From positions 1 through 34,339 of the forward strand of contig JAESSS010000006.1 in assembly GCA_016763975.1 (NCBI GenBank): a stretch of 34,339 nt of DNA, in the 5' to 3' direction. The first letter of the stretch is position 1; the number at the start of each line of letters is the position of its first letter. The DNA is from Candidatus Altimarinota bacterium. GTDB taxonomy: Bacteria > Patescibacteriota > Gracilibacteria > UBA1369 > LOWO2-01-FULL-3. Position numbers and translations under genes: made by a program. Below the pieces are notes generated by a model. That model was not told the origin of the DNA and searched no databases. It worked only from the letters and a program-made list of their open reading frames with translations. This document shows positions 7,732-27,037 of this stretch, in pieces.

Positions 7732-8487
7732 ATGGAAAATATTTGGCTATATGCTTTAGGCTCGGTTGGATTGGTAAGTTTAGTCTCTTTTGTAGGAGTG
7801 CTGACACTTTCTATCAAATCTAAGAGTTTGGAGAGTGTGCTGATTTATATGATTAGCTTTTCGGCCGGTGCTTTGTTTGGTGATGCATTTTTTCATTTAT
7901 TGCCGGAGGTTGTGGAGCAAGTTGGTTTTAGCCAAGCTGTATCCTTTTATATACTGGCGGGAATAATGTTTTCTTTGATTGTGGAAAAAGTGATTCACTG
8001 GAGGCATTGTCACCACCCTACTACTGATTCTCATCAGCATCCTTTTGCACTGATGAATTTGGTCGGTGATGCTGTACATAATTTCCTAGACGGATTAATT
8101 ATCGGTGCAGCGTATTTGATTAGTATTCCTGTGGGGATAGCGACTACTGTTGCTGTTATTTTGCATGAAATTCCTCAGGAGATTGGTGATTTCGGGGTGT
8201 TGTTGCATGCGGGTTATTCGAAGAAAAAAGCTCTTTTCCTAAACTTTGTGATTTCTTTGTTTGCTTTGATGGGAGTGTTGATTGCCCTGTTGATTGGTTC
8301 AAATGTGGAGGGCTTGGTGGTGTTCTTAGTTCCGTTTGCTGCAGGAAACTTCATCTATATTGCGGGAGCTGATCTGATTCCAGAAATGCATGCTCAAACT
8401 GCAACCAGCAAAGCTTTCGTACAATTTATAACTTTCGCTCTCGGAGTGGGAGCGATGTATTTGCTACTCTTTGTGGAATTCGTTTAA
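7732..8487 (+). CDS. ZIP family divalent metal transporter
   Basis: ZIP proteins carry zinc or other divalent metals into the cytoplasm. The 251-residue protein has eight predicted membrane segments, the His-rich loop HWRHCHHPTTDSHQHP after segment 3, HNFLDGLIIG in segment 4 and HEIPQEIGDF in segment 5, which form the binuclear metal centre. I chose the ATG at 7732 over a TTG at 7690 because it places the first membrane segment at the N-terminus and leaves promoter space before the divergent gene. No Shine-Dalgarno sequence is evident. The last 4 bases overlap the convergent pilin gene. Metal preference (Zn, Fe, Mn) cannot be told. Confidence 0.9.
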   Translation: MENIWLYALGSVGLVSLVSFVGVLTLSIKSKSLESVLIYMISFSAGALFGDAFFHLLPEVVEQVGFSQAVSFYILAGIMFSLIVEKVIHWRHCHHPTTDSHQHPFALMNLVGDAVHNFLDGLIIGAAYLISIPVGIATTVAVILHEIPQEIGDFGVLLHAGYSKKKALFLNFVISLFALMGVLIALLIGSNVEGLVVFLVPFAAGNFIYIAGADLIPEMHAQTATSKAFVQFITFALGVGAMYLLLFVEFV

Positions 8488-8984
8488 CGTATCAATTCGA
8501 TTGTTGGTTCTGTTCCGGTTCCACCGGCACCTTCTCCTTCTGTGTCACATGCACCAACTGTGACTGCTCCGTTTGTATCAACTGAAAGATAGTAGTCAGT
8601 GTGTTCATCTGTGCCTGAGTTTGGATCTTTTGGTACTGTTCCAAGGTAGTTTGTTTCCATTCCTGATAGATCTACGCAGTTGTTGGATACTGTTTGTCCT
8701 ACGCAAACTGAATTTGCCCCGGCAGCGCAGGTTCCGATTTCGTATTTAGTTGTTGCTGTTAGGTTGTCGACGTTTGTGTAGTGCTCTCCTTCGTTGTCTG
8801 TTTGATATTTGACTACTGCATCCATAATTGTGTTTACATCGCTTGCTCGGCGAGCATTTCTGGATTCGTGAAGACGGCGAGCCGGGTCTAGCGCCACAAA
8901 AATTGCACCGGCCAATATTGCGATTATTGCTATAACAATAATCAGCTCAATTAAAGTGAATCCTTTGTGCTTACTATGTGCCAT
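8484..8984 (-). CDS. Type IV pilin, major-type (second of tandem pair)
   Basis: A 166-residue prepilin: leader MAHSKHKG cut before F, then FTLIELIIVIAIIAILAGAI with Glu at +5, the standard class III signal and N-terminal alpha helix. DPARRLHESRNARR follows, typical of small CPR pilins. The C-terminal half is Cys-containing (four cysteines, possibly two disulfides) and ends DYYLSVD, NGAVTVGACD and GEGAGGTG. It starts 3 bases after the stop of its paralogue and is last in the operon. It overlaps the convergent ZIP gene by 4 bases. The two pilins could be alternative or co-assembled fibre subunits. Confidence 0.92.
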   Translation of the reverse strand: MAHSKHKGFTLIELIIVIAIIAILAGAIFVALDPARRLHESRNARRASDVNTIMDAVVKYQTDNEGEHYTNVDNLTATTKYEIGTCAAGANSVCVGQTVSNNCVDLSGMETNYLGTVPKDPNSGTDEHTDYYLSVDTNGAVTVGACDTEGEGAGGTGTEPTIELIR

Positions 8985-8987
8985 CCA

Positions 8988-9485
8988 TTAGCGAGTTACG
9001 GAAATTGTTGGTGCTGATCCTGTACCTCCAGCGCCCTCTCCTTGAGGATCACATGAACCAACTGTGATTGCACCGTTGGCATCAACTGAAAGATAATAAT
9101 CTGTTTCTGCTGCTGTACCTGTAGCTGGGTCTATTGGTATGTCGGCGACGTAGTTTGAACCGATTGATGCGAGATTTACGCAGGCAGTTTGGGTTGTTTG
9201 GGCTGTACATCCAGAATCACAACCAGTACCAGCTGTTCCGATTTGTGAGAATTGACCAGCTGTTAGTGCTGCAACTGCAGAATAATGAGTTCCTCCGTTG
9301 TCTACTTGGAATTTTACTACTGCGTCGAGAACTTGTGTTACGTCGTTTTGTCTTACTGCGTTTCGTGATTCGTTGAGACGACGAGCGGGATCTATAGCAA
9401 CGAAGATTGCCGCAGCTAGAATACCAATAATCGCTATTACGATGATTAATTCGATGAGGGTGAAGCCTCTGTTATTTCTTTTCAT
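8988..9485 (-). CDS. Type IV pilin, major-type (first of tandem pair)
   Basis: A 165-residue prepilin with leader MKRNNRG, FTLIELIIVIAIIGILAAAI (Glu +5) and DPARRLNESRNAVR. Four cysteines are placed like those of the downstream paralogue, and the same C-terminal DYYLSVDANGAITVGSCD and GEGAGGTG motif is present. Sharing this C-terminus while the middle differs suggests tandem duplication with divergence of the exposed region. A good promoter lies just upstream, inside the end of pilM, so the pilins can be made in excess over the assembly machine, as expected for a fibre subunit. No Shine-Dalgarno is seen; the leader holds an odd C-rich stretch (CCCCTCACCCCTC). Confidence 0.92.
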   Translation of the reverse strand: MKRNNRGFTLIELIIVIAIIGILAAAIFVAIDPARRLNESRNAVRQNDVTQVLDAVVKFQVDNGGTHYSAVAALTAGQFSQIGTAGTGCDSGCTAQTTQTACVNLASIGSNYVADIPIDPATGTAAETDYYLSVDANGAITVGSCDPQGEGAGGTGSAPTISVTR

Positions 9486-9515: not shown

Positions 9516-9544
9516 ATTCTACAATATAAGAGTTACTTTTTCAA
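9516..9544 (-). promoter_or_regulatory. Sigma-70-type promoter for the two pilin genes
   Basis: On the minus strand TTGAAA (9539-9544) and TAGAAT (9516-9521) are separated by exactly 17 bases. Transcription would begin near 9509, giving a ~24-base leader to the ATG at 9485. The -35 overlaps the last codons of pilM. Confidence 0.65.
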
Positions 9545-10474
9545 AAGGTTTATGGTGGAATCGTTGTTAATTCCTTTTCCACGGAGGGCCAAACCAATCG
9601 CGACCTTGTAGTGGTTGCCATTTTCTGGCGGCTCAACTTTATATTTTTCGATGATGGAAATGGGAAGTTTTATTGTTTTTTGTAAATGTTTCTGAAGTCC
9701 TGCACTATTTTGTGGGCTTCCTGAAAGATGAATTTGTGTAATTTGGAGTTTGGTGATTTTGGCGAATTCTTGGCTAACCTTTTCGAGTTCTTTGTTAATT
9801 GCCGATGGATTGGTGTTGAAATCAGCTTTATCAAGAGTGTGCATGTCGAAAATATTTGCTCCCCAAATTGCATACCAAGTGATTTTTTCCTCATTAATAT
9901 CTATCAAAATTGTTCCTTGGTCTTTTGGGAATTGCTGTGCGATGTTGCGCATAATGCTGAAATATGTTGGTTCCAGGCTGAGAGTTTCGATCTTGGAAAA
10001 CTGGTGAAGTGTTTCATAATATTGTGCGATTATTTCTCTACGCGCAGCTACAACTGAAACAACTTGGATCTGGCCCAGATTCACAACTGAATAGTCATAT
10101 TTAATTGAGTGAAAGGAGAGTGGAATTGTTTCAGCAACTAACTTATCTAAGTAAGCGGCAAATTCATCTCCTTTAATTTTGGAAGGAATATAAAAGATGT
10201 GTTCGAAACTTTGTTTTTCGGGGATTGCCACAGCACATGTTTTTGAATCGACTTTCTGTTCCTGGAATAAGCTGTTTATTTGTTGTGACAGTTCTTTTTC
10301 TTTTAATATTTCCCCATCCACAACTATTCCCAATTCCAGTTTTCTTTCGGCACATTTAGTGAGAGTAAATGCTCCATCTTTCTCTGATACTTGAGCGATA
10401 CGAATAGCAGTGTCGGTAATTTGTAATCCGAAACTTGTGTTGCCGCTGAAGAAATTTTTAATTTTGTCTAACAT
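9533..10474 (-). CDS. pilM: Type IV pilus assembly protein PilM
   Basis: PilM is an actin-like cytoplasmic ATPase-fold protein of the T4P inner-membrane platform. This 313-residue copy shows the PilM layout: an N-terminal strand (FGLQITDTAIRIAQV), VDGEI, AIPEKQSFEHIF (~83-94), a central EPTYFSIMR helix, ILIDINEEK and C-terminal VAIGLALRG. It ends STINLLKK; an IN(L)LP-like motif is normally the N-terminus of PilN, the peptide that docks into PilM. No pilN or pilO gene follows; the next genes are pilins. The ATG lies 1 base after the pilX-like stop. Identity rests on fold-level motifs rather than a unique signature. Confidence 0.82.
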   Translation of the reverse strand: MLDKIKNFFSGNTSFGLQITDTAIRIAQVSEKDGAFTLTKCAERKLELGIVVDGEILKEKELSQQINSLFQEQKVDSKTCAVAIPEKQSFEHIFYIPSKIKGDEFAAYLDKLVAETIPLSFHSIKYDYSVVNLGQIQVVSVVAARREIIAQYYETLHQFSKIETLSLEPTYFSIMRNIAQQFPKDQGTILIDINEEKITWYAIWGANIFDMHTLDKADFNTNPSAINKELEKVSQEFAKITKLQITQIHLSGSPQNSAGLQKHLQKTIKLPISIIEKYKVEPPENGNHYKVAIGLALRGKGINNDSTINLLKK

Positions 10475-10475
10475 T

Positions 10476-10877
10476 TTATGTGTTTTCTAACCAAGAATTA
10501 ATAGTAAATGTCGGGAATATTGTAACAGTAATCTGAATAATTTTGCTGTAAATTCCATTTGTGCTAGTGGCAGTTATTGTTCTGCTTGTGCCTGTGCCAC
10601 TGATAGTGATCACACAAGAAGTGTTGTCGAGAGTGATTGTTTCGCCGGTGTATGAGCTGTTGCGATTCATGCGGGTGAGGGCTTCTTCGGCGCAGCCGTC
10701 AGTGTTGAGTAATACCCTAGAAGAGTAACTCTGCGCTAAGTTTATTTGGTTTTCGGTGATTGAATTAAGACCCATGCCAACAGCAATAACGGTTATTGCG
10801 GATGCAATAATAATCATTGAAATGAGCACTGCCATGCCTTTTGTATTCCGTACTATTTTTTTGATCAAGTTTTTCAT
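10476..10877 (-). CDS. PilX/GspK-like minor pilin
   Basis: A 133-residue protein with a basic leader ending NTKG and a hydrophobic segment MAVLISMIIIASAITVIAVG. Position +5 is Ile, not Glu; loss of Glu +5 is typical of GspK-type subunits that cap the fibre tip and of some PilX proteins. A short beta-rich domain with two cysteines follows. Its ATG overlaps the pilW-like TGA (ATGA) and pilM starts 1 base after its stop. In T2SS the H-I-J-K minor pseudopilins form the initiating tip; this gene holds the K position. It lacks the large insert domain of true GspK. Confidence 0.78.
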   Translation of the reverse strand: MKNLIKKIVRNTKGMAVLISMIIIASAITVIAVGMGLNSITENQINLAQSYSSRVLLNTDGCAEEALTRMNRNSSYTGETITLDNTSCVITISGTGTSRTITATSTNGIYSKIIQITVTIFPTFTINSWLENT

Positions 10878-11425
10878 TCTCTTGTTGATAAAGCAGTTTC
10901 TAATGAGATAGATGCGTTGTAGTTTGGATCCCCTCCTGGGTTTGCTCTGGAAAATGTAACTGCGAAGTGGATGTTTTTGTTTTCTGACCCTCGTGTGAGA
11001 TTTGTTAATGTGAAATTTGTGACGTCCGTATGTTTGTCAGTGAGATCAATGGCAGCTGCTGTGCCCTCTTTGATGCGTAGAGTGCGGATTGTAGGGGTTT
11101 GAGTACCGATTGTTACTATCTGTGTATAAGTATCAATTACAACGTCTGTGCCGGAGCCAGGGAAATCTAGAGTGAGTACTCCCGGGTGTGATCCAAAGGT
11201 TGATGATCCAGTAATAACGTCCTCTGCTTCTCTCATGTTGAGCTGAATTTGGTGCATTCCTAGACGGGCGTTGGCGTAGGTTTCCTGAGCGCCTTGAGCT
11301 TTGTCAGCTGATCTAATGAGATTAATTCCAATATTCACAGCAACAACCAAAGTAGTGGCAGCGATAGCTATGTAGACTATTAGCTCTACTAGAGTGAATC
11401 CTTTTTTGTTGGTTTTGTTTTTCAT
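10874..11425 (-). CDS. PilW/GspJ-like minor pilin
   Basis: A 183-residue prepilin starting MKNKTNKKG, then FTLVELIVYIAIAATTLVVAV with Glu +5; the Tyr in VELIVYIAI is frequent in PilW/GspJ subunits. The rest is a beta-rich domain (ANARLGMHQIQLNMREAEDV, then repeated strands). The frame is open further upstream, but the ATG at 11425 puts the leader in the right place, 1 base after the preceding stop (TAA-T-ATG). It ends in TGA overlapping the next ATG. It likely joins the tip complex with the two large FN3-bearing subunits. Confidence 0.85.
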   Translation of the reverse strand: MKNKTNKKGFTLVELIVYIAIAATTLVVAVNIGINLIRSADKAQGAQETYANARLGMHQIQLNMREAEDVITGSSTFGSHPGVLTLDFPGSGTDVVIDTYTQIVTIGTQTPTIRTLRIKEGTAAAIDLTDKHTDVTNFTLTNLTRGSENKNIHFAVTFSRANPGGDPNYNASISLETALSTRE

Positions 11426-11426
11426 A

Positions 11427-13355
11427 TTATGGTGAGAAACTTGGTGTTGTATATGTTGAGCCGTCACCCAATTCAAATTTGATGGTGAAAGTATCGCCGT
11501 CCATGTCTCCGTTGAATTTAAATTTGTCGAATTCGTCTGTATTACCCGAATCAAGATCGTAATCCTCTACGTCCAGTTCTGTGCCGGTATTCTGTCTACC
11601 ATCTGGAGAGCCCTCATTATTGTGTTTCCAAATTCTGTCCCCCTCGATTTTCACTTCCTCAATCTGCTGACCATTGGTCCAAGTGACTGTGATTTTGGCG
11701 ATTACTATGGTGTCACCGCTAGTGTTTTGAACTGTTATGCCTCTCAGCTCTTTGTCGCCTCCACCGGCAATATTTGCTCCTGATGTGTCGACTACAAAGT
11801 CGTCTGCTTCACTTGGAGAATCTGTCGTATCGTTTGGTACGTTTGAGATAGCTGATTCATTCGGTACTTCGTCTGAGGTCTTGATTGCGAAATAATATGT
11901 TGTTGAATTGGAAAGGCCTGTGACTGTCATACTTTCGGATGAGCCCGCCACTGCTGGTGTCGGTTCACCACTGGTCACTGCTGTAGCTGATCCCCAGTTT
12001 CCTGCTGTAATTTCCGATGTGGAATATCTGACATCGTATGTTGTGGCTGTTCCTGAGCTGCCGTCGTCTCCTGGTGCTGTCCAGCTGAGGCCGATTGTGT
12101 TTGAGCTTGGATTTTCTGTGTTGAGGTCGGAAATCGCTGCTGGGGCTGTTGTGTCTGGAGTGAGAGTGGTGGAGTTGGTGATGTTGGAAATACTTGATTC
12201 GTCTGCGGCTTCATCCGTTGTCTTGATCGCAAAGTAGTATGTTGTTGATGCTGTAAGACTGCTAACAGTCATCGATTCTGATGATCCTGCCACTGCTGGT
12301 GTCGGTTCACCAGTCACTGTTGTGGCAGAGCCCCAGTTTCCTGCAGTTATTGTGCTTGTTGAATATCTGACGTCGTAGCTGGTCGCTGTTCCCGTACTTC
12401 CATCGTCTCCTGGCGCTGTCCAATCCAAATCGATTGTTGTTGTAGTTGGGCTGGATGCTGCCAAATTACTCACTGCGGCAGGAGCTGTTGTATCTGCTGG
12501 TGCTGCACCTGGAGTTACCTCGACATAGCGAGTAGAACCGTCCGTCATGGTGAAAAGAAATGTAAAACTGGCCCCACTCATACTTCCATCAAAGTCGAAT
12601 TTATCAATATCTATAGCTCCTGAACCAGAAGTTAGAGTGACGTTGTCTAGATCCAGCTCCACTCCTGACGGTTGTTTCCCGCTTGGGGATCCGGCTGAGC
12701 CATCATGTTTCCATCTTTTTGTATTATCAATTTTTACCTCCTTAATGTCTTCGACAATTGACCATGTTGGCAATATTTTGTCGATTATAATGCTAGAAGA
12801 GCCGAGATTCTCGACGGTTATGTCTTCCAAGCGTTTATTACCTCCAGCAAGGGAGGCACTACTAACATTAACACTCAAATAGCCAGACATTTCGCATCCC
12901 TGCGAGCTTGTCCAATTATTTAAGTATTCTGTGGCAGAAATTGATGTGTTGTTGCCAGCTTCAAGGTCCCAACTCACTGTGACTTTGACCTCTTTGCTAT
13001 TAGCGTCTGTTGTTCCACTTGGAGTGATGTTGCAGCTGGCGTTACGCTGAGCTGAACTGACTACTACTGTACGGGTGTAGTCCCCTGTTGTGTCGGATGA
13101 TCCACTAAATTCCCAATAACCACTGCCGTCAGTCAATCCGTGGGTGCCGTTTGATAAATTTGAAAAACTGAAATCTCTGATTGATCGACTAGCCTCAAGT
13201 CCTTGTTGCAACAACATGTCCGCCTGAAAAAACTCGGTATCTCTCAGGTTACTAGAAAATGCTCCCAAATAAAGTGTGACCACACTTGCTGAGATGATTG
13301 TAAAGATGCCGACGGCAACTATTACTTCTACTACTGAGATTCCTTTTTTATTCAT
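11427..13355 (-). CDS. Giant PilV/GspI-like minor pilin with two FN3 domains and two copies of a novel domain
   Basis: A 642-residue prepilin, against the ~120-200 usual for GspI/PilV. Leader MNKKG, then ISVVEVIVAVGIF (Glu +5; Ile replaces Phe at +1). Residues ~15-155 form the pilin domain. Residues ~160-282 and ~518-642 are two copies of an unrecognised beta-rich domain X with the order GG-(N/D)K-L--ITV-N, I--KI---W, E-VKI----WKH, GSP-G-Q--G-EL, DKF-F-G-M-G--F---F---DGS. Between them are two fibronectin type III domains (~290-398, ~401-510) with DWTAPGDDG, YDVRYST and TTYYFAIKT-DE signatures. It sits in the GspI position of a gspH-I-J-K-like order. An adhesive or ligand-binding role at the pilus tip is inference. 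Confidence 0.88.
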   Translation of the reverse strand: MNKKGISVVEVIVAVGIFTIISASVVTLYLGAFSSNLRDTEFFQADMLLQQGLEASRSIRDFSFSNLSNGTHGLTDGSGYWEFSGSSDTTGDYTRTVVVSSAQRNASCNITPSGTTDANSKEVKVTVSWDLEAGNNTSISATEYLNNWTSSQGCEMSGYLSVNVSSASLAGGNKRLEDITVENLGSSSIIIDKILPTWSIVEDIKEVKIDNTKRWKHDGSAGSPSGKQPSGVELDLDNVTLTSGSGAIDIDKFDFDGSMSGASFTFLFTMTDGSTRYVEVTPGAAPADTTAPAAVSNLAASSPTTTTIDLDWTAPGDDGSTGTATSYDVRYSTSTITAGNWGSATTVTGEPTPAVAGSSESMTVSSLTASTTYYFAIKTTDEAADESSISNITNSTTLTPDTTAPAAISDLNTENPSSNTIGLSWTAPGDDGSSGTATTYDVRYSTSEITAGNWGSATAVTSGEPTPAVAGSSESMTVTGLSNSTTYYFAIKTSDEVPNESAISNVPNDTTDSPSEADDFVVDTSGANIAGGGDKELRGITVQNTSGDTIVIAKITVTWTNGQQIEEVKIEGDRIWKHNNEGSPDGRQNTGTELDVEDYDLDSGNTDEFDKFKFNGDMDGDTFTIKFELGDGSTYTTPSFSP

Positions 13356-13357
13356 TT

Positions 13358-15238
13358 TTATGGTGAGAAACTTGATATGGTAACTGTTGAGCCATCCCCC
13401 AATTCGAATTTGATGGTGAATGTGTCGCCAGTCATATTTCCGTTGAATTTAAATTTGTCGATATTGACGGTGCTACTTGCTGCAAGATCGTAATCCTCGT
13501 TATCTATTTCGGTACCTGTATTCTGTCTACCATCTGGTGAACCTTCGTTGTTGTGCTTCCAAATTCTGTCTCCATCAATCTTTATTTCCTGGATTTTCTG
13601 GCCATTAGTCCAGGTAACAGTGATCTTGGCGATTACGATTGTACTACCGCTAGTGTTTTGTAAGGTGATACCTTTCAACTCCTTGTTGCCTCCTCCGCCA
13701 ATATTCGCTCCGGAAGTACTAACCACTAAACTGTCTACTTGGCTTGGAGCATCGGTTGTATCGTTTGGTACGTTGGAGATCGCGGATTCGTTTGGCACTT
13801 CGTCTGAGGTCTTGATTGCGAAATAATATGTTGTTGAATTTGAGAGCCCAGTGACCGTCATCGATTCGGATGAGCCTGCAACTGCCGGTGTCGGTTCTCC
13901 ACTGGTCACTGCTGTGGCTGATCCCCAGTTTCCGGCTGTAATTGTAGATGTGGAGTATCTGACATCGTATGTTGTGGCTGTCCCGCTGCTACCGTCGTCT
14001 CCCGGTGCTGTCCATGTGAGGTCGATTGTATTTGAGCTTGGATTGTCTGTGTTGAGGTCTGAGATAGCTGCTGGGGCTGTTGTGTCGGGAGTGAGAGTAG
14101 TGGAGTTTGAAACGTTGGAAATTGTGGAAGTATTTGCTGCTTCGTCCGTAGCCTTGATCGCAAAGTAATATGTTGTCGAATTTGAGAGGCTTGTGACAGT
14201 CATTGATTCTGATGAGCCGGCCACTGAAGGTGTTGGCTCTCCTGTCACTGCTGTAGCTGCGGCAAAGTTTCCGGCTGTAATTGTCGATGTTGAGTATCTA
14301 ATGTCGTATGTTGTCGCTGTTCCTGTACTTCCATCGTCTCCTGGTGCTGTCCAATCCAAGTCGATTGTTGTTAGAGTTGGGCTGGATGCTGCCAAATCAC
14401 TCACTGCGGCCGGTGCTGTTGTATCTGGGGCAAGAGTGGTGGAGTTGGGTACATTAGAAATTGCAGAAATGTTTGGAATTTCATCCGAAGTTTTCATCGC
14501 GAAATAGTATGTTGTCGAAGCTGTGAGGCCTGTGACTGTCATACTTTCTGATGATCCGGCAACTGAAGGCGTTGGTTCGCCAGTCACTGCTGTAGCTGCG
14601 GCAAAATTACCGTCGTTGATTGTGCTGGTTGAATATCTGACATCGTATGTTGTGGCCGTTCCTGTGCTGCCGTCGTCTCCTGGCGCTGACCATGTCAGTC
14701 CGATGCTTGTAGATGTGGGACTGGTGGTTGCTAGATTACTTATTGCATCTGGGGCAATGCTGTCTGGTGCGGCTGTTGCAGTACCCAGCAGTCCTTTGGC
14801 GTTGATGGAAATAGTTGTGGTAGTGCCAAAAATATCTCCAATGTCAAAAGTGCCGTTGTTGCTGGTTTCACCACTGCCTTTGTCAAAAACTATGTAATCT
14901 GTAGCTCCGCCGAGACTGAGATTTGAAAGAGAAATTGCGCTTGGTAAGGTTGTAGTTATGTCGAATGAGCTGTCGCGTCCAGCGTATGTTGAGCCTTTAA
15001 AAAGCACAAACTTGTCGTTGCTAGCATCGATATGTACTCCCCATTGAGAGTTGTTGAGAGCAGCAATTGAGCGTGTGTGGGCTAGGCGAATGGTGTTTTC
15101 CAACTGTTCAGTATTGCTTTTTAGTTCAGCTCGAACCACTGTTCCCCCACTAATACTAAAAACTGCGCCGACCAGAATTGCGAAAACGGCGATGACCAGA
15201 ATGAGCTCCACTAATGTAAATGCTTTTCTTTTTATCAT
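13358..15238 (-). CDS. Giant FimT/GspH-like minor pilin with three FN3 domains and a novel C-terminal domain
   Basis: A 626-residue prepilin starting MIKRKA then FTLVELILVIAVFAILVG, Glu +5. The residue before the cut site is Ala instead of the near-universal Gly. Residues ~40-155 match a GspH/FimT fold (ENTIRLAHTRSIAALNNSQWGVHID). Three FN3 domains follow (~160-268, ~270-384, ~387-494), then domain X (~504-626), the same as the C-terminal domain of the downstream gene. The last FN3 plus domain X is nearly identical between the two proteins, pointing to recent duplication or gene conversion. Its ATG overlaps the pilC stop (TAATG). Known GspH/FimT proteins lack such an extension. Confidence 0.88.
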   Translation of the reverse strand: MIKRKAFTLVELILVIAVFAILVGAVFSISGGTVVRAELKSNTEQLENTIRLAHTRSIAALNNSQWGVHIDASNDKFVLFKGSTYAGRDSSFDITTTLPSAISLSNLSLGGATDYIVFDKGSGETSNNGTFDIGDIFGTTTTISINAKGLLGTATAAPDSIAPDAISNLATTSPTSTSIGLTWSAPGDDGSTGTATTYDVRYSTSTINDGNFAAATAVTGEPTPSVAGSSESMTVTGLTASTTYYFAMKTSDEIPNISAISNVPNSTTLAPDTTAPAAVSDLAASSPTLTTIDLDWTAPGDDGSTGTATTYDIRYSTSTITAGNFAAATAVTGEPTPSVAGSSESMTVTSLSNSTTYYFAIKATDEAANTSTISNVSNSTTLTPDTTAPAAISDLNTDNPSSNTIDLTWTAPGDDGSSGTATTYDVRYSTSTITAGNWGSATAVTSGEPTPAVAGSSESMTVTGLSNSTTYYFAIKTSDEVPNESAISNVPNDTTDAPSQVDSLVVSTSGANIGGGGNKELKGITLQNTSGSTIVIAKITVTWTNGQKIQEIKIDGDRIWKHNNEGSPDGRQNTGTEIDNEDYDLAASSTVNIDKFKFNGNMTGDTFTIKFELGDGSTVTISSFSP

Positions 15239-16314
15239 TATCCGAGGTTACCGCTAATTTCATAAATTGGTCCGAGAATGGAAATTGCCACTGTTCCTAC
15301 AACAATACCAATTACCATCAAAAGTATTGGTTCGATTACCGTGGAAAGATTCTTAGTTGCTTCGTCTACTTCCTCCTCGTAAAAAGTTGCAAGGTATTGA
15401 AGAGTGTTGTCGAGGTTACCGGTTTTTTCTCCCACGCCGACCATACGAGTTGTGATTGTTGGGAAAATATCTGGATATTTTTCGAGGGCTGACTGGAGAC
15501 TGTTTCCTGATTCTATCTCCGGAATCGTAGCCTGTATCGCTTTGCGATAAACTCTGTTGTCTGTGGCCTCTGCAGTAATTTTGAGACTTTGGTCTACAGT
15601 TAATCCACTTTCCAAAAGCCCACCAAAAGTATAGTTGAATCTCTCTAGATTGATGTTTTTGATAATATTTTTGACCACGGGTATTTTAAGGTAAACACTG
15701 TGGGTGAATGGTTTCACGAAGTCTCTTCTGATTAGCCACATGAAAAGACTAAAGCCAATAACCATTGAAAGGAAAATACTTGTGCCACTGTTTTCGAATT
15801 TTTCTGCAACCCAGAGCAGCCCCTTAGTTGTTGCTGGTAAGTCGATATCTAAAGTACGAAATAGTGGGAGAATTTTTGGTAGTACAAAAATTGCTACTGA
15901 CATTCCCAATCCGAATACTGCTAAGAATACAAATGAAGGATAAATAAGTGCAGAACGAATCTTCTTTTTGAGGTCTAATGTTTTTTTCAACTCTTTAGAT
16001 ATCTTCTGAAGATTCTCTTCAAGGTTTCCAGAAGTTTCTCCGGAACGAACCATGTTGATATATATTTCTGTGAAATGTTTTTTCTGTTTTGTAAGAGCTC
16101 CATGAAAAGATTCACCAGCTTTGATATCATCGTGGATAGTTGTGACAACTGATTTGAATTTGCCATTGGCCCTATCTGACAATATCTCCAAACCTTCAAC
16201 AAGCGTCAGTCCACTCTTCAAAATTACAGCGAGATGCTTAGTAAAAAGCATGATGTCAATATCGGTGACTGAACCGAACTGAATATTCCAAATTGATTTT
16301 TTTTCTTCTGGCAT
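15238..16314 (-). CDS. pilC: Type IV pilus platform protein PilC
   Basis: PilC is the polytopic inner-membrane protein on which PilB acts to extrude pilins. The 358 residues contain two T2SF domains: residues ~18-140 (FTKHLAVILKSGLTLVEGLE, VRSGETSGNLEENL) and ~220-345 (FGGLLESGLTVDQSLKI, VGVGEKTGNLDNTL). Three hydrophobic segments are visible (~143-170, ~192-215, ~330-352), the usual topology. It starts 1 base after the pilB stop and overlaps the next start. The length is close to, slightly under, the ~400 typical of proteobacterial PilC. Confidence 0.93.
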   Translation of the reverse strand: MPEEKKSIWNIQFGSVTDIDIMLFTKHLAVILKSGLTLVEGLEILSDRANGKFKSVVTTIHDDIKAGESFHGALTKQKKHFTEIYINMVRSGETSGNLEENLQKISKELKKTLDLKKKIRSALIYPSFVFLAVFGLGMSVAIFVLPKILPLFRTLDIDLPATTKGLLWVAEKFENSGTSIFLSMVIGFSLFMWLIRRDFVKPFTHSVYLKIPVVKNIIKNINLERFNYTFGGLLESGLTVDQSLKITAEATDNRVYRKAIQATIPEIESGNSLQSALEKYPDIFPTITTRMVGVGEKTGNLDNTLQYLATFYEEEVDEATKNLSTVIEPILLMVIGIVVGTVAISILGPIYEISGNLG

Positions 16315-16315
16315 T

Positions 16316-17995
16316 TTATGATCTTATTACGCGCATCATTTCTTCAATAGTTGTTTGTCCGTTTAATACTTTTTCACGAGCATCATCAAACATTGTGGTC
16401 ATTCCACCTTCCACAGCTTTGGCTTTGATTTGATCAGCGTCGGCCTCGTCCATAATTAGTTTTCTCACTTCATCATCTACTTCCATTACCTCAAATACTC
16501 CGATACGTCCGCTATATCCTGTGTCATTACAAACTGCACAACCCGCACCTTTGTAGAGAGTAATTTTGTCTTTGCCACGTGCAAGTTTTTCTAGTGCAGA
16601 AATTGGCATTTTGCCTTGGAGATCCAAAAGATCGGTTTCATAACTCTGAATACATTTGGAACAAATTTTACGTACAAGACGTTGGGCAATCACCACGTTG
16701 ATAGTTGAAGCGATCAAGAAAGGCTCAACTCCCATATCCTTGATACGAGGAATTGTTGTGGCTGCGTCGTTGGTATGAAGTGTAGATAGTACCAAATGAC
16801 CGGTCATCGCTGCGTTGATAGAAATGTTAGCGGTTTCTTCATCACGAATTTCCCCGACCATTATGATATCCGGATCCTGACGTACGATTGATCTCAATCC
16901 AGAAGCAAAAGTTAGTTCGGCCTTTGGATTAACTTGAATCTGAGTAATGCTGCTGACGTTGTATTCTACCGGATCTTCGATAGTGGCGATATTTACTTCA
17001 CGTCTATTGAGGATTTTCATCACCGAATAAAGAGAAGTTGTTTTGCCGGAACCTGTAGGTCCAGTAACGAGGATCATGCCCCATGGCTTCTTGATTGCCT
17101 CACTAAGTTTGGCGTGATCTTTTGCGCCCAGACCAATGTCTTCGAGAGTAAATTCGCGAGACTGATCTGAGAGCAACCTCATCACTACATTTTCACCTTT
17201 TGTAGTGGGCACAACGGAGACACGAACGTCGAGCTTGTGATTGTCGATGTTGTATTCTATCTTGCCGTCCTGTGGAACTTGATGTTCATCAGTACGGAGA
17301 TGTGACATTACTTTGATTCTGGAAATAACAACGTCGTGAATTTTGGCGGGGATAGAAATAACGTCATGCATCACTCCGTCGATACGGAAACGCACTTGAG
17401 TTTCATTTTCACCCGGCTCAATATGAATATCTGAAGCTTTGTTTTGGAAACCACGTTGGAGCAGCATATCTACAATTTGAATGGTAGAGCTTTCTTTGCT
17501 TTCCCCAATCACTGCATGTGCCGCCTCTGCCTTGATAATCTTTTCGAATTCTTCGCGAATGTCGGTTTTGTATACGTCGAGATGTGTATGGATGTCTTTT
17601 AATGTCGCAAAGTATGGAATGAGCTTTTCCCCAAGTTTTTTCTCTAAGAGATGAAGAAAATTCGTATCATCCGGATTGTTCATCGCTATTTTTATACCAT
17701 CATCTGTGCGAGCAAAAGCTAAAGTTTTCTGTTTTTTGGCTACTCTCTCAGGAATAAGGTGGGCAATGCTCTCATCGATGCCCTCTTTGCTGAGATTAAC
17801 AAATTGCCAAGCCATAATTTGGCAAACAAGTTGCCCCATTTCGTCATCTTTGACAAAATCTTTGCTAATCAAAGCTTCCTCCAAGCTAGTAGCATTCTTT
17901 TTAGCGTAAGTAACCGCTTCCTGCAGCTGTTTCTGGCTGATGAATTCACCCTGAATCAACATTATTTCTAGTTTTTGTTGTGTCTCCTGATCCAT
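16316..17995 (-). CDS. pilB: Type IV pilus extension ATPase PilB
   Basis: A GspE-family hexameric ATPase that powers pilus extension. Of 559 residues, ~1-150 are an MshEN-like N-terminal domain. SDIHIEP (188-194) begins the ATPase part. Walker A is GPTGSGKT (312-319), the Asp box is ATIEDPVEYN, the Walker B region is DPDIIMVGEIRD (374-385), and the His box is TGHLVLSTLHTNDA. The zinc tetracysteine is C445-x2-C448 and C486-x2-C489, seen in extension (PilB/GspE) but not retraction (PilT) ATPases. It is the first gene of the pilus operon, with AAGGA 6 bases before the ATG and an extended -10 promoter upstream. No pilT or prepilin peptidase is in the window. Confidence 0.96.
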   Translation of the reverse strand: MDQETQQKLEIMLIQGEFISQKQLQEAVTYAKKNATSLEEALISKDFVKDDEMGQLVCQIMAWQFVNLSKEGIDESIAHLIPERVAKKQKTLAFARTDDGIKIAMNNPDDTNFLHLLEKKLGEKLIPYFATLKDIHTHLDVYKTDIREEFEKIIKAEAAHAVIGESKESSTIQIVDMLLQRGFQNKASDIHIEPGENETQVRFRIDGVMHDVISIPAKIHDVVISRIKVMSHLRTDEHQVPQDGKIEYNIDNHKLDVRVSVVPTTKGENVVMRLLSDQSREFTLEDIGLGAKDHAKLSEAIKKPWGMILVTGPTGSGKTTSLYSVMKILNRREVNIATIEDPVEYNVSSITQIQVNPKAELTFASGLRSIVRQDPDIIMVGEIRDEETANISINAAMTGHLVLSTLHTNDAATTIPRIKDMGVEPFLIASTINVVIAQRLVRKICSKCIQSYETDLLDLQGKMPISALEKLARGKDKITLYKGAGCAVCNDTGYSGRIGVFEVMEVDDEVRKLIMDEADADQIKAKAVEGGMTTMFDDAREKVLNGQTTIEEMMRVIRS

Positions 17996-18092: not shown

Positions 18093-18467
18093 CTACTGTT
18101 GCGGAAGGTTTTTTTGCACTTTTTCGACGATAATATCCATGGTGCTATCAGATTTGGACATATAATCGACTGCCCCTAGATCCATGCCTTTTTTGATATC
18201 AGCCTCTTGTCCAAGACCAGAAGTGATGATGACAGGAATATTCGCTAATTGTGGATTAGCTTTCAGTTCCTGCAACACTGTGAAACCATCTTTTTTGGGG
18301 ATGATTAAGTCGAGGAGGATAATATTTGGCAGCTCAGAAGCGGCTAGTGCAAGCCCTATTTCACCGTCATCTGCTATTACGACGGTCCATCCGGATTGGC
18401 TTTGGAGTTGCTGTGTGTATACTTTTTGGAGGAATTTGTCATCCTCGATCAATAATATTTTTGCCAT
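18093..18467 (-). CDS. Stand-alone receiver domain protein (CheY-like)
   Basis: A 124-residue receiver with no output domain. Acidic pair EDD (8-10), phospho-acceptor D53 (NIILLDLII), Ser in IITSGLG and K105 are all present, so it should take phosphate. The residue after the Lys is Ser, not the common Pro. It is the last of four receivers in tandem (cheD side to pilB side), starting inside the stop of the previous one (TAATG). Likely partners are CheA or the membrane kinases further upstream, and the likely output is the pilus motor encoded next; both are inference from position. Confidence 0.9.
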   Translation of the reverse strand: MAKILLIEDDKFLQKVYTQQLQSQSGWTVVIADDGEIGLALAASELPNIILLDLIIPKKDGFTVLQELKANPQLANIPVIITSGLGQEADIKKGMDLGAVDYMSKSDSTMDIIVEKVQKNLPQQ

Positions 18468-18841
18468 TAAATGTGGGATTTAATTTTTTCAAGTACAGAC
18501 TCTATAGAAACATTTGCTTTTACAAGATAATCGATTGCGCCAGCGCTCATTGCTTTTTCTACGTCCAATTCCTGTCCAAGATTTGAAAGCACAATTACAG
18601 GAATGTGTTTGATTGCAGGGTCAGCTTTCATTGCTAGAAGGACTTCAAAACCATTTTTCTTCGGTAAAAGAATGTCCAAGATGAGAAGATTTGGGAGTTC
18701 GGTCTTTAGCTTTTCGAGTGCTGTGTCTCCATCTTCCGCGGAGACAATGACATAACCAGCTGCTTCTAACTTGGTGAGATAGATTTTTAGAAGAAATTTA
18801 TCGTCTTCTGCGATTAGAATTTTTTTTGCTTCTTCGGCCAT
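18467..18841 (-). CDS. Stand-alone receiver domain protein
   Basis: 124 residues, receiver only. EDD at 12-14, phospho-acceptor D56 (LLILDILLPKK), Ser in VIVLSNLGQ and K108 followed by AN instead of Pro. It is close in sequence to its neighbours (PKKNGFEVL, DYLVKANVSIE), so the four receivers look like tandem duplicates that have diverged on the surface. It begins 7 bases after the preceding gene and overlaps the next start by one base. Confidence 0.9.
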   Translation of the reverse strand: MAEEAKKILIAEDDKFLLKIYLTKLEAAGYVIVSAEDGDTALEKLKTELPNLLILDILLPKKNGFEVLLAMKADPAIKHIPVIVLSNLGQELDVEKAMSAGAIDYLVKANVSIESVLEKIKSHI

Positions 18842-18848
18842 AGGTAGT

Positions 18849-19214
18849 TTAGTTTAAGTAATTTCCGACTAGACCCATTATCTTTTCAAGAGAGATGTTG
18901 CCCTTAATTAAATAGTTATTTGCTCCTAAATCCATAGCTTTTTGAATGTCTTCTTTGCTAGGAAGTGCAGACTGTATGATGATTGGTATTTCTTTCGTTT
19001 TATCATTAGCTTTGACCATAACCAGAAACTCAAAACCGCTTACTTCAGGCATTATAAGGTCCAAAAGAATAAGGTCGGGATTTTCTGATAGTGCTTTTTC
19101 CATGCCTTCTCTGCCATTTTCAGCTGTAACTACCTCATACTTAGATGAGAGTTTTAATGTTAAGACTTTCTGTAATAGATGATCGTCCTCAATCAGTAAG
19201 ATTTTTTTCATCAT
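18849..19214 (-). CDS. Stand-alone receiver domain protein
   Basis: 121 residues, receiver only. Acidic residues EDD (9-11), phospho-acceptor D52 (LILLDLIMPE), Ser in IIIQSALPS and K104 followed by GN. It is the most diverged of the four tandem receivers around the switch (QSALPSKEDI rather than SNLGQE). It starts at ATG 19214 (an alternative ATG lies one codon downstream), 6 bases after the stop of the tailed receiver. A phosphate sink or a specific output to a pilus ATPase are both possible. Confidence 0.9.
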   Translation of the reverse strand: MMKKILLIEDDHLLQKVLTLKLSSKYEVVTAENGREGMEKALSENPDLILLDLIMPEVSGFEFLVMVKANDKTKEIPIIIQSALPSKEDIQKAMDLGANNYLIKGNISLEKIMGLVGNYLN

Positions 19215-19220
19215 TGGTGC

Positions 19221-19790
19221 TTAAGCTGAGGGTGTAGGTGGAAGTGGGGGTGTTACTGCAGGTGTTGCTGCGGGTGTTACTGCAAGTGTTACTGCAGGTG
19301 TTGCTGCAGGTGTTGCTGCGGGTGTTACTGCAGGTGTTACTGCAGGTGTTACTGCAGGTGCTGCGGGTGCTTCTGCAGGTGCTGCGGGTGCTGCTGCGGG
19401 TGCTGCTGGGAGTGGAGCATCAAGCCACTTTTGTATTTTGAGCATTACGTCTTCGATAGAGATATTTGCTTTGATAATGTAATCGTTTGCGCCTGCATCC
19501 ATTCCTTTTTTGATATCTTCTTCCTGCCCCAAATTAGTAAGAATAATAACCGGTATTGTATTAAGATTTGGGTTTTTCTTTATCTCAGTCAAAACATCAA
19601 ATCCACTCTTTTTGGGCATTATTAAGTCCAAAAGAATGATATCTGGCTTTGGTCCAGCTTCTAATTTTTGGAGAGCGTCTTCTCCATCACAAGCAATAAT
19701 AACTGTGAATTTTTCTTTTGTGAGCTTAGTTTCGTAGATTTTTGCTAGAAACTTATCGTCCTCTGCTACCATGATAATTTTTGGATCCAT
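19221..19790 (-). CDS. Receiver domain with Ala/Pro/Thr/Val-rich C-terminal repeat tail
   Basis: 189 residues: a complete receiver (~1-124; EDD 10-12, phospho-acceptor D55, Thr in ILTNLGQE, K107 followed by AN) and then a ~63-residue low-complexity tail of PAAPA and PAVT/PAAT repeats. The tail is flexible and uncharged except for one Glu, unlike any output domain. It could act as a spacer or tether, or bind a partner as Pro-rich linkers do. CheW and the MCP of this operon also end in Pro-rich tails, though more charged. It starts 9 bases after cheD and is first of the four tandem receivers. Confidence 0.88.
   Translation of the reverse strand: MDPKIIMVAEDDKFLAKIYETKLTKEKFTVIIACDGEDALQKLEAGPKPDIILLDLIMPKKSGFDVLTEIKKNPNLNTIPVIILTNLGQEEDIKKGMDAGANDYIIKANISIEDVMLKIQKWLDAPLPAAPAAAPAAPAEAPAAPAVTPAVTPAVTPAATPAATPAVTLAVTPAATPAVTPPLPPTPSA
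19224..19412 (-). repeat. 12-bp-unit coding repeat in the receiver tail
   Basis: The tail-coding DNA repeats a 12-base unit (on the plus strand GGTGTTACTGCA or GGTGTTGCTGCA) many times, encoding PAVT/PAAT, with near-identical neighbouring units. This is a likely site of slippage and length variation. Confidence 0.85.
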
Positions 19791-19799
19791 GTTGATACA

Positions 19800-20279
19800 T
19801 TACATTACAGATGAGACCTGAACAACTCCTGATGCTAAATTAATAACTACTGACTTACCTGCAGTGCCACCGGTATCTTCTTTGTCTATTGGAATAGCCA
19901 GTTCTGTTAGCCGTTTACGTGCAGCTTCGACATTTCGGTTGCCAATACTCTGGGTGCCGCCGGCAATTTTGCTAAACATAGATGCGCCACCAATTAGTTT
20001 GGCGGAAAGATTTTCTTTGATACCACCTTGGCGTTGTATTTCTAGGATTAGGTTGTCGACACCTTCATCCGCAAATTTGGCAGGCTGATCAGCCTCGTTT
20101 GGCCCAGCTTTATGATGTTCGTCGCGATATGGCAGCATGGAATGGGCTAATCCACCAATTTTTGATACAGCGTCGTAGAGCACTATGACAATACAAGAAC
20201 CAATACTTCCTGTTCTCACAGAGTCATCATTGTGGCTAACTGCCAATTCTGCAGTCCTGACTGTGATTATATTGCCCAT
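19800..20279 (-). CDS. cheD: Chemoreceptor glutamine deamidase CheD
   Basis: CheD deamidates Gln in MCPs and binds CheC, raising its phosphatase activity. The 159-residue protein has the catalytic set T23, C29 and H46 (RTGSIGSCIVIVLYD and GGLAHSMLP), with the same internal spacing as the T21-C27-H44 triad of Thermotoga CheD, and KLIGGASMF (~93-101). Its start overlaps the cheC stop by one base (TAATG), matching the known physical CheC-CheD partnership. It is followed by the four receivers. Confidence 0.94.
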   Translation of the reverse strand: MGNIITVRTAELAVSHNDDSVRTGSIGSCIVIVLYDAVSKIGGLAHSMLPYRDEHHKAGPNEADQPAKFADEGVDNLILEIQRQGGIKENLSAKLIGGASMFSKIAGGTQSIGNRNVEAARKRLTELAIPIDKEDTGGTAGKSVVINLASGVVQVSSVM

Positions 20280-20905
20280 TATTCCTGTACATTTAGTTTT
20301 ATTTTTATTTTCTCCAAAATTTTATCTGTAGATTTCGGATCGAATAGGAAAAAAAGATCTCCTCCTATTTTCTCCCCTTCAATTTTGAGATTAATCTTGA
20401 AGGCTATGACGTGATCGGATTCAGCACCCATTTCTAGAAAAACTGTATCCATAACTGCCCCTAACATATCCGTGGATATATCTGGGATTGAGTGTGTAGT
20501 GTTGAGCTTTAAAAACTTGGAAATAGCTGTTAGGGATGATCCTAACAAAATATTACTAACTTCGAGAAGTGTAGATTTATCTTCTTCGTTGAGGGTAGAG
20601 ATCTCTTTTTTTTCTTTTTTTGAAAGCAAATTAACAAAACTAAGTGCACTTTCCGGAGTAAAAAGGTTGAGCATTGCACCGTTGATGTCTCCTTGTACTT
20701 TGAGGAATACTGCTACGACTGCGTCCTTGGATTCTACGAACTGTCTCTCCATAGAAACTAATTCTCCAATAAAGGGAACCGGGACATCGATCTCAATTTT
20801 TTTATTGAGCATATGAGATAATGCTGTAGCTGCATTGCCGGCACCGATATTGGCCATTTCAGCAAGAGCGTCCATCTGCATATTTTTTGCTTCCTCTAGG
20901 TTCAT
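20279..20905 (-). CDS. cheC: CheY-P phosphatase CheC (two active sites)
   Basis: CheC removes phosphate from CheY-P and is boosted by CheD. Both halves carry the full signature (D/S)x3Ex2Nx22P: D12-E16-N19-P42 and S111-E115-N118-P141. Length 208 residues is normal for CheC. An extended -10 promoter precedes it, so cheC, cheD and the receivers may be expressed partly apart from cheA. A second, diverged CheC-like protein is encoded at 24065-24646. Confidence 0.94.
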   Translation of the reverse strand: MNLEEAKNMQMDALAEMANIGAGNAATALSHMLNKKIEIDVPVPFIGELVSMERQFVESKDAVVAVFLKVQGDINGAMLNLFTPESALSFVNLLSKKEKKEISTLNEEDKSTLLEVSNILLGSSLTAISKFLKLNTTHSIPDISTDMLGAVMDTVFLEMGAESDHVIAFKINLKIEGEKIGGDLFFLFDPKSTDKILEKIKIKLNVQE

Positions 20906-20926
20906 GTTCAGGTAATTAATCTTGTT

Positions 20927-20935
20927 ATTATAACA
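20927..20935 (-). promoter_or_regulatory. Extended -10 (TGTTATAAT) before cheC
   Basis: TGTTATAAT lies in the 34-base gap between cheA and cheC, 22 bases upstream of the cheC ATG; transcription would start near 20920. No -35 of quality is seen because cheA coding sequence occupies that position. It is a probable internal promoter. Confidence 0.5.
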
Positions 20936-20939
20936 TTTT

Positions 20940-22610
20940 TTAGTGTCCTGATATATAGCTGAGCAGGCTCACGAGGTCCAAAATCAGTACGGTTCTGCCA
21001 TCTCCCAGAATAGTAGATCCAGCGAATCCTTTGATAGTGGATAAAGTTTGGGGAAGTGGTTTGATAATAATTTCCTGCTGCGCTAACAACTCATCAACTA
21101 CGATTCCAGCAACTTCTTTGCCGCGTTTGACGAGTACCACAGTGATTGGTCCATCTTTTTGTTCCTTTTCATCTTCTTTGGCGAAAGTGTCTTTAAATAC
21201 TTGCTCCAATCTGATCAATGGCACGTCTGTGCCGGCCACAATTGCGGTTTCGTGATCTGCGATTGTTTTGATGTCTTTTTGCTCAACATGAACAGTTCTT
21301 TCTATGCTTGAAAATGGTATGGCCATTGTTTGATCCTTTACCCTAACAAGTAGTGCGTCGATTATGGCTAAGGTAAGCGGCAATTCAAGTGTAAACCTTG
21401 TGCCGCTGCCCTCTTCTAATGGAGATTTAATAATTATTCTTCCAGAAATTTCCTCTACAAATTGTTGAACAGCGCTCAGTCCAACTCCTCGTCCAGATAT
21501 TTCGGTTACTTCTCCTTTAGTGGAAAGTCGAGGATCAAAAAGAAGTTTCTCCATACCTTTCTGATTTTTGCTTGTCTTTAATTTGGTACCTTCTTCACTG
21601 CTAATTATGTTGGACTCAATTGCGGAAGTTATAACTTTGTCCCAATCTATACCTCTGCCGTCGTCTTCGATAACAAGAGTGATATAATCTTTCTGATGTT
21701 TTGCCGTAATAGATATTGTTCCTTTTTGCTCTATGCCATGGTCGATAGCGTTACGTAAAAGATGAATAATCGGACCACCTAATTTGTCCACGATGGTTCT
21801 GTCTAATTCAATTTCACTACCATTAATCTTGAGCTCGATCTCTTTATTTTGCTTCTGGGCAAGATCACGTACCATCCTGGGGAAACGTGAGAAAATCTGT
21901 TCTAGAGGCACGAGGCGCGCCTGTAAGACGTTGAATTGTAGATCCATAACCAGTCGACTAAGTTGCTCAACAGCTGGTTTGAGTTCGATCAGTGCGGACT
22001 TGGCTGTTTTTGGATCAATAAGTCCAGCGCTGAGGGACTCGATACGCATTTTGTTGACCAATAGCTCTTCTGTGATGTCCATGAGGTCGTCCAAACGGTG
22101 AATCGGTACTTTGACACGAGAAATCTCATCGATTGTCTGGTCTTTGTTTAAAAATGCTTCGTTAAAATCATCTGTTTCTTTAGTTGGAGCTGTGGGGGTT
22201 TTGGCTGCTACTTTACTGACAACTTTTTTTGTAGAGTCAGTGCATAGAACCTTAATTTTTTCTGACAGTTCAGTGCTATCTAATTCCACTCCGGTATCTT
22301 TGATGGCGCTGAGTGATTTTTCTAAAGCGTCGAAACCGTTGAATAATTCGTTCATAATGCCTTTGCTGAGGGCAAGGGTACCTTTGCGGGCGTTGTCAAA
22401 AATATCTTCGAGAACATGGCTTAGTGTAGCCATATGATTGTAGCTCATTGTTGCGGATGATCCTTTGATCGTGTGTGAAGAACGCATCAAATCGTTGAGA
22501 ATTGATTTTTCTTCTGGTGTTTTCTCAAGAGCCAATAAATTATCATTGAGTTTTTGGATTTGAGTTTCCACTTCTGAGATGTAAAGTTCTTTGAACTTTG
22601 AAAGATCCAT
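20940..22610 (-). CDS. cheA: Chemotaxis histidine kinase CheA lacking P2
   Basis: CheA autophosphorylates in response to MCP signals and passes phosphate to CheY and CheB. In 556 residues: P1 (~1-120) with phospho-acceptor H46 in SSHTIKGSS; a linker (~125-155, VSKVAAKTPTAPTKETDD); P3 dimerisation helices (~160-225); P4 kinase (~226-412) with N box HLLRNAIDHG, DDGRGID and GRGVGLSAV; P5 CheW-like (~415-556). The P2 domain that docks CheY/CheB is absent, replaced by a short linker, so phosphotransfer would rely on P1 alone. It starts 9 bases after cheB. Confidence 0.95.
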   Translation of the reverse strand: MDLSKFKELYISEVETQIQKLNDNLLALEKTPEEKSILNDLMRSSHTIKGSSATMSYNHMATLSHVLEDIFDNARKGTLALSKGIMNELFNGFDALEKSLSAIKDTGVELDSTELSEKIKVLCTDSTKKVVSKVAAKTPTAPTKETDDFNEAFLNKDQTIDEISRVKVPIHRLDDLMDITEELLVNKMRIESLSAGLIDPKTAKSALIELKPAVEQLSRLVMDLQFNVLQARLVPLEQIFSRFPRMVRDLAQKQNKEIELKINGSEIELDRTIVDKLGGPIIHLLRNAIDHGIEQKGTISITAKHQKDYITLVIEDDGRGIDWDKVITSAIESNIISSEEGTKLKTSKNQKGMEKLLFDPRLSTKGEVTEISGRGVGLSAVQQFVEEISGRIIIKSPLEEGSGTRFTLELPLTLAIIDALLVRVKDQTMAIPFSSIERTVHVEQKDIKTIADHETAIVAGTDVPLIRLEQVFKDTFAKEDEKEQKDGPITVVLVKRGKEVAGIVVDELLAQQEIIIKPLPQTLSTIKGFAGSTILGDGRTVLILDLVSLLSYISGH

Positions 22611-22619
22611 TTTATTAAT

Positions 22620-23672: not shown

Positions 23673-23694
23673 TTTTTTGATCAAATTTCTCTTT

Positions 23695-24054
23695 CTATAA
23701 ACCTAGAACTTTGTTGATTGTGTTTACCACTTGGTCGTTTTCGAAAGGTTTTACGATGTAGTCAGATGCCCCGTTGGCCTTGGCTTCATTTACACTTTCA
23801 TCCTGTCCTACAGCGCTAATTACGATCACTTTTGCTTTTTGACTGAGCTCAGCGATAATTCCCATTCCACCAGTCTCCGGCATAATTAAGTCCAGCAAAA
23901 TGAGTGCTGGAGCTTCTGAGTCTGTTTTTGTTCTAGCATCGTTGCCGTTTTCACCTTCAACAAAATTACTGTATCCGGCTCCTTCAAGAATATTTTTGAG
24001 AACTGATCTCATGAATGCTGAGTCGTCGACTATTAGTATTTTTGTATCAGCCAT
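23695..24054 (-). CDS. cheY: Chemotaxis response regulator CheY
   Basis: A 119-residue single-domain receiver: VDDS (9-12), phospho-acceptor D55 (LILLDLIMPE), Ser80 (VIVISAVGQ) and K102 in VKPFEND. It keeps the Lys-Pro pair that the other six single-domain receivers of the window lack, and SAFMRSVL is typical of chemotaxis CheY. I start it at ATG 24054 (MADTKIL); a longer open frame upstream overlaps the preceding gene and encodes nothing receiver-like. The flagellar switch target is absent here, so its output is probably pilus-related. Confidence 0.93.
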   Translation of the reverse strand: MADTKILIVDDSAFMRSVLKNILEGAGYSNFVEGENGNDARTKTDSEAPALILLDLIMPETGGMGIIAELSQKAKVIVISAVGQDESVNEAKANGASDYIVKPFENDQVVNTINKVLGL

Positions 24055-24064
24055 ATGGTTTTGG

Positions 24065-24646: not shown

Positions 24647-24648
24647 AG

Positions 24649-25356: not shown

Positions 25357-25360
25357 TTTT

Positions 25361-26983: not shown

Positions 26984-27008
26984 TTTTATTTTTGTTAAAC
27001 TTTTCATT

Positions 27009-27037
27009 ATTATACCATCTTTTATTGCCTGTGGCAA
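27009..27037 (-). promoter_or_regulatory. Promoter of the chemosensory operon
   Basis: TTGCCA (27032-27037) and TATAAT (27009-27014) are spaced by 17 bases, with TG one base before the -10 (TGGTATAAT). This fixes the MCP start at 26983. The inverted repeat TTGCC-TGT-GGCAA (27025-27037) overlaps the -35 and could be an operator. Confidence 0.72.

Follow-up and report, generated by a model that had tools for sequence, protein, structure and literature searches.

Paired modular H- and I-type minor pilins in a patescibacterial type IV pilus operon share an uncatalogued Ig-like domain and may form surface-binding tip rods

Established models of type IV filaments put the H-I-J-K complex of minor pilins at the tip, where the I subunit starts assembly and modular pilins present effectors (PMC9934059, PMC8179133). 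In Streptococcus sanguinis, PilB and PilC attach to host ligands by means of modules carried on pilins (PMC8179133, PMC9934059), and in the Saccharibacterium TM7x deletion of the beta-propeller pilin PilX2 lowers host binding (PMC12206443). A survey of modular pilins named the fibronectin type III domain (FN3, IPR003961) as one of the 15 extra domains seen most often, took several of its representative proteins from candidate phyla, and included a Falkowbacteria pilin of 860 aa with 12 IPR013211 motifs (PMC8179133). Pilins with added modules, among them FN3, have been described before, as has a saccharibacterial propeller pilin that binds the host. Here we describe a pilus operon of a Candidatus Altimarinota bacterium, a member of the Patescibacteria, on contig JAESSS010000006.1 (the whole analysed stretch of 34,339 nucleotides is referred to as the window), in which two neighbouring minor pilin genes, P0001 and P0002, are greatly enlarged. 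We read their products, with a probability of about 0.62, as H- and I-type pilus-tip subunits that have turned modular, forming tip rods that bind a surface, the tail of the H-type protein having probably been copied from the I-type protein. What is new, as far as we have seen, is the family of a domain that we call X, the paired expansion of the H- and I-type subunits, and a count showing that the I slot is the usual large-module site of the phylum. A literature search, whose scope took in few subscription papers, returned no paper joining LVIVD repeats with pilins, or FN3 with pilins and the candidate phyla radiation (CPR).

The two proteins resemble S. sanguinis PilB (vWA module) and PilC (lectin module) in joining a pilin N-terminus to bulky modules, in being minor pilins of one operon and in their proposed display at the tip (PMC8179133, PMC9934059). 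In contrast to the streptococcal system, the H- and I-type subunits are both modular here and share the uncatalogued domain X. PilX1 and PilX2 of Nanosynbacter lyticus TM7x are likewise patescibacterial minor pilins with added C-terminal domains, but they carry a jelly roll and an RCC1 propeller as modules, and the authors report no predicted PilD signal (PMC12206443). The tip adhesin PilC/PilY1 also brings a beta-propeller binding module to the H-I-J-K tip (PMC8179133, PMC9934059); it is a separate, non-pilin protein, whereas in the window the module is fused to the pilin itself. Other Patescibacteria have LVIVD-propeller I-type pilins with the same head, operon slot and a similar length, in which the propeller replaces the X/FN3 rod.

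The original prediction had placed two oversized prepilins at 11427-15238, with the orders FN3-FN3-FN3-X and X-FN3-FN3-X behind their N-termini, and both the placement and the domain orders proved correct from Pfam fn3 stretches and from comparison of the X copies. P0001 (626 aa, 13358-15238, minus strand) consists of a prepilin N-terminus and head (residues 1-158, 14765-15238), three FN3 domains (residues 159-271, 272-384 and 385-495, together 13754-14764) and one X (residues 496-626, 13361-13753). P0002 (642 aa, 11427-13355, minus strand) has a prepilin N-terminus and head (residues 1-153, 12897-13355), a first X (residues 154-287, 12495-12896), two FN3 domains (residues 288-400 and 401-511, together 11823-12494) and a second X (residues 512-642, 11430-11822). 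Both start with a class III signal, i.e., a short basic leader ending in Gly or Ala, a hydrophobic stretch and Glu at position +5. That of P0001 is KRKA/FTLVELI (the slash marks the putative cleavage point), with Pfam N_methyl (PF07963) scores of 29.8 and 24.9 bits, over the 21.2-bit cut-off in both tests; that of P0002, KKG/ISVVEVI, is borderline (21.5 bits in one test, 14.9 in the other), although its head belongs to a conserved pilin-head family captured by our A4 profile. The extra modules agree with the definition of modular type IV pilins (Raynaud et al. 2021): Pfam fn3 (PF00041, gathering cut-off 25 bits) matches three stretches of P0001 with 88.9 bits and two stretches of P0002 with 58.8 bits.

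That these are GspH- and GspI-like prepilins of a pilus operon, as had been proposed, is borne out by their surroundings. The minus-strand operon runs in the order pilB, pilC, P0001 (H-type), P0002 (I-type), J-type, K/PilX-type, pilM and two GspG/PilA-type pilins. The four minor pilin genes thus follow the H-I-J-K order, which is kept in a genome of the same family (G019) and in the Buchananbacteria genome L036. The J-type pilin (183 aa, 10874-11425) has the leader KKG/FTLVELIV and an N_methyl match over the cut-off, and the K/PilX-type pilin (133 aa, 10476-10877; KG/MAVLISMI) carries Ile and not Glu at mature residue 5, as is known for K subunits, which occur without Glu5 (PMC9934059). A prepilin peptidase gene (contig C60, 55.3 bits) and a PilT-like ATPase gene (contig C30) are found elsewhere in the genome. 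A search of relatives with the H-type head profile brought up homologues that lie upstream of the I gene and are plain.

To place P0002 in the phylum, we searched 380 genomes with the A4 profile, built from twelve X-bearing I-type heads (threshold E up to 1e-8). It matched 197 of them; some of the weaker matches span the N-terminal helix region only and may be other pilins. Among the 127 matches listed that cover most of the head, the reading frame, measured from stop to stop and hence slightly overlong, reaches 400 aa or more in 80 cases and 600 aa or more in 48, with a median of 498. Giant I-type pilins are therefore usual in this phylum. The earlier expectation that such subunits normally stay under about 200 residues holds for model organisms but fails for the I-type pilins of Patescibacteria, and the view that a giant pilin with added domains is out of the ordinary was not supported. 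A Pfam scan of 72 giants, chosen by head score, so that the proportions are valid for this sample only, found LVIVD in 47 (we take IPR013211 to be the same repeat), Beta_propel in 24, Laminin_G_3 (lectin-like LamG domains) in 5 and fn3 in 2, the latter being P0002 and the Buchananbacteria protein. CBM_2, Lectin_like, the Sialidase N-domain, LRR and other repeats occurred as single cases. Most of these modules are binding or display folds.

The I-type pilin of L036 is exactly X-FN3-FN3-X and stands beside a plain H-type pilin of 158 aa, while G019 combines a 284-aa I-type pilin bearing one X with a plain 160-aa H-type pilin, and in other members of the window's family the I slot is taken by a propeller of about 620 aa. 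Across the phylum the LVIVD-propeller I-type pilins measure 460-700 aa. One I-type pilin (L109:502-2358) unites both module types, X being followed by an LVIVD-type beta-propeller, and three genomes (L108, L187 and L195) have two I-type pilins in tandem. H-type pilins beside I genes range from about 125 to 240 aa; the exceptions are an overlapping frame in L123 and three proteins of about 970-990 aa. These three (L199:5449-8415, L205:5493-8411 and L209:3-2924; the same class as the window) contain Ser/Gly-rich linkers and a repeated module that differs from those of the window and has no Pfam match. In a scan of public genomes, FN3 domains similar to ours lay mostly on secreted surface proteins of many phyla, and only the L036 protein was a pilin, as judged by eye from the N-termini. 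FN3 similarity alone can thus not be used to trace pilins.

The second and third FN3 domains and the X of P0001 are colinear with the first and second FN3 domains and the second X of P0002, with amino acid identities of 84, 96 and 78%. The repeat pairs are under purifying selection, with ratios of nonsynonymous to synonymous substitution (dN/dS) of 0.09-0.18, and both genes therefore look like working, maintained genes. Repeats of this kind could in principle mislead a genome assembler: the FN3 repeats are up to 88% identical in DNA and the genome is a draft in 103 contigs. We nevertheless regard it as highly improbable that the two long genes are assembly chimaeras, since the longest exact stretch common to both is 44 bases (24 within one gene), both frames are open throughout, and the X-FN3-FN3-X order recurs in the independent genome L036. 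The sequences point most simply to an FN3-FN3-X tail of the I gene that was probably copied onto a plain H-type pilin and followed by further change in the FN3 part, the direction from I to H being suggested by the plain H genes of relatives.

Domain X, which the original prediction could not assign to a family, is a real and so far uncatalogued domain. The two C-terminal copies are 78% identical and the other pairs about 42%, and even the most divergent copy, the first X of P0002, is recovered at E 2.5e-27 against the P0001 copy, far above chance. A sequence search against Pfam gave no match over the cut-off, and searches against the PDB, with the single sequence as well as with a profile, gave nothing significant. 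With profiles built from 6 and then 17 sequences, 10 of 380 phylum genomes and 7 of 353 class genomes proved to contain X, counts that take in the window genome and three weak matches to non-pilin proteins. The proposed search of other CPR genomes for X on prepilins was successful: X occurs on minor pilins of other Patescibacteria, and within the phylum all strong matches form part of a pilin. Strong bacterial matches sit exclusively on H-type (L092), I-type (L010, L094, L095, L097, L098, L102 with three copies, L108 twice, L109 and L110), J-type (L096 and L099) or K/PilX-type pilins (L093). Weak matches in L011, L100, L111 and L112 were dropped as non-pilin proteins with marginal scores. Confinement to CPR minor pilins, the pattern expected of a new family, holds for the strong bacterial matches but not beyond them. 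A protein of a Thermoplasmata archaeon (L117:925-2604) carries two X domains (E 4e-14) and begins with a stretch like that of type IV pilins, and weak copies (E 7.7e-5) are present in a PilX-like protein of Omnitrophota; a wider scan of 116 genomes from the phylum of that archaeon gave no other case. X is therefore a rare domain of scattered occurrence that goes with type IV filament proteins, both in bacteria and in at least one archaeon. The copies in the window have an insertion in the KHNNEGSPDG region that is missing in most other X domains. One genome (G182; L093/L102) has X on both an I-type pilin, with three copies, and a K-type pilin. Two J-type pilins of different families (L096:1288-2238 and L099:736-2106) have an X followed by a similar cysteine-rich tail that ends in CCC and then Ile or Lys.

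An AlphaFold2 (AF2) model of X shows an all-beta, Ig-like sandwich (pLDDT 85, pTM 0.80). Structure prediction followed by Foldseek and profile searches, the route suggested earlier for naming the domain, led to an Ig-like model, for which many Ig-like folds tied as matches. The structural neighbours are Ig-like folds in general, among them an archaeal pilus subunit and two archaellum proteins, FlaG and FlaF. The best Foldseek E value was 1.3e-3, with FlaG at rank 5 (8e-3), and the VIA-align Z score of 7.3 against FlaG was tied with those of unrelated Ig-like folds. ApaG, copper chaperones, integrin, adaptin and toxin receptor-domain sandwiches were among the tied matches and were set aside as reflecting a common arrangement and not a function. 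What X would have in common with the archaellum FlaG/FlaF and archaellin heads (PF01917) is a beta-sandwich of Ig-like type carried by a type IV filament protein; in contrast to these heads, X stays below the Pfam cut-off and is appended behind a complete bacterial pilin head. Against Arch_flagellin (PF01917, gathering cut-off 29.5 bits), 3 of 17 X members match weakly and below the cut-off, the best natural one reaching 18.9 bits (E 0.002), and the copies in the window do not match at all; a match of the artificial X consensus (E 0.001) was not counted, as that sequence is not natural. Profile comparison with hhalign gave p of about 1e-4 and a probability of 58% for FlaG, over 42 columns only, and p 0.012 for archaellin, whereas shuffled and reversed controls gave p of 0.04 or worse and probabilities of 0.1-1.3%. 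These values are suggestive, not proof, of an archaellin-type Ig ancestor shared by X and the FlaG/archaellin heads.

By analogy with the described systems, the prepilin peptidase would cut the leaders of P0001 and P0002, and PilB and PilC would build the H-I-J-K cap from which the filament grows. The extra domains would then project from the tip as flexible Ig-like/FN3 rods that bind a surface, be it a partner cell, a particle or a polymer, so that the rods may serve adhesion and host or particle attachment. The I-type slot would act as an exchangeable display cassette, filled with a propeller in most relatives and with an X-FN3-FN3-X rod in this lineage. Several points weigh against this reading. 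The tip location is argued from homology of position. P0001 reaches 33.2 bits against GspH (TIGR01708, equivalog cut-off 80) and 37.1 bits against ComGD (NF040982, equivalog cut-off 70), and no P0002 match to GspI (TIGR01707, cut-off 44.35 bits) was listed at E up to 1; because these curated cut-offs were missed, the H and I names follow from operon position and head similarity. An AF2 model of P0002 residues 1-290, based on two sequences, is poor (pLDDT 49), and neither protein contains an RGD ligand motif. FN3 and Ig-like domains, moreover, often serve as mere spacers.

The last point leads to a different function, in which FN3 and X, as stalks or bulky caps, only lend the tip stability or keep it clear of the envelope while the pilus binds by other means. 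X ends both proteins and also brackets the FN3 pair in P0002, and a single X suffices in G019, all of which would suit a structural part. We consider this unlikely, as the modules that relatives have in the same slot (propellers, LamG, CBM_2 and lectin-like ones) resemble devices for binding more than spacers. It is less probable still that the operon encodes a DNA-uptake (competence) pilus with modules for DNA capture or passage through the wall: the P0001 head resembles ComGD as well as GspH, but falls short of the ComGD cut-off, and a ComEC-type channel (PF03772) was not found in this 92% complete genome by a search that was positive in 10 of 14 control genomes.

It is tempting to extend the reading to the phylum. 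The patescibacterial I-type minor pilin might be a dedicated, exchangeable cassette for host or surface recognition that does the job of PilY1, with module swaps tracking the attachment target, and X might belong, together with the archaeal FlaG/archaellin head, to one Ig-like family specific to filaments. We put this forward tentatively and think it rather more likely to be wrong than right. The matter bears on how uncultured ultrasmall bacteria recognise their partners: a single gene, whose pilin head makes it recognisable in roughly half of the Patescibacteria genomes sampled and whose C-terminal module varies by lineage, yields a definite list of candidate recognition proteins.

The remaining operon genes all lie on the minus strand. 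The operon is headed by the PilB/GspE-type assembly ATPase (16316-17995; Pfam T2SSE 444.6 bits, the best match in the genome), followed by the PilC/GspF-type platform protein (15238-16314; T2SSF 201 bits). Beyond the minor pilins lie PilM (9533-10474; PilM_2 72.7 bits) and two GspG/PilA-type pilins, one of them the probable major pilin (8988-9485; N_methyl 45.1 bits) and the other at 8484-8984 (42.3 bits). The 1.45 Mb genome has more pilin clusters and PilB-type ATPases on contigs C30, C57, C77 and C86, the PilB frame on C86 containing one internal TAG. No RNA families were found in the window, promoter-like matches were no commoner than in shuffled sequence, and terminator-like matches were slightly commoner than in shuffles.

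A chemosensory cluster (18093-27037, minus strand) directly adjoins the pilus operon. It encodes CheD (19800-20279), a CheC/CheX-like protein (20279-20905), CheA (20940-22610), CheB (22620-23684), CheW (24649-25356), a methyl-accepting chemotaxis protein with a CHASE3 domain (25361-27037) and several CheY-type receivers, all on that strand. This cluster, unexpected in so small a genome, may steer the pili. On the plus strand of the window (21-2408), a 795-aa frame without a Pfam match opens with several lysine-rich KAKPKTATQ repeats.

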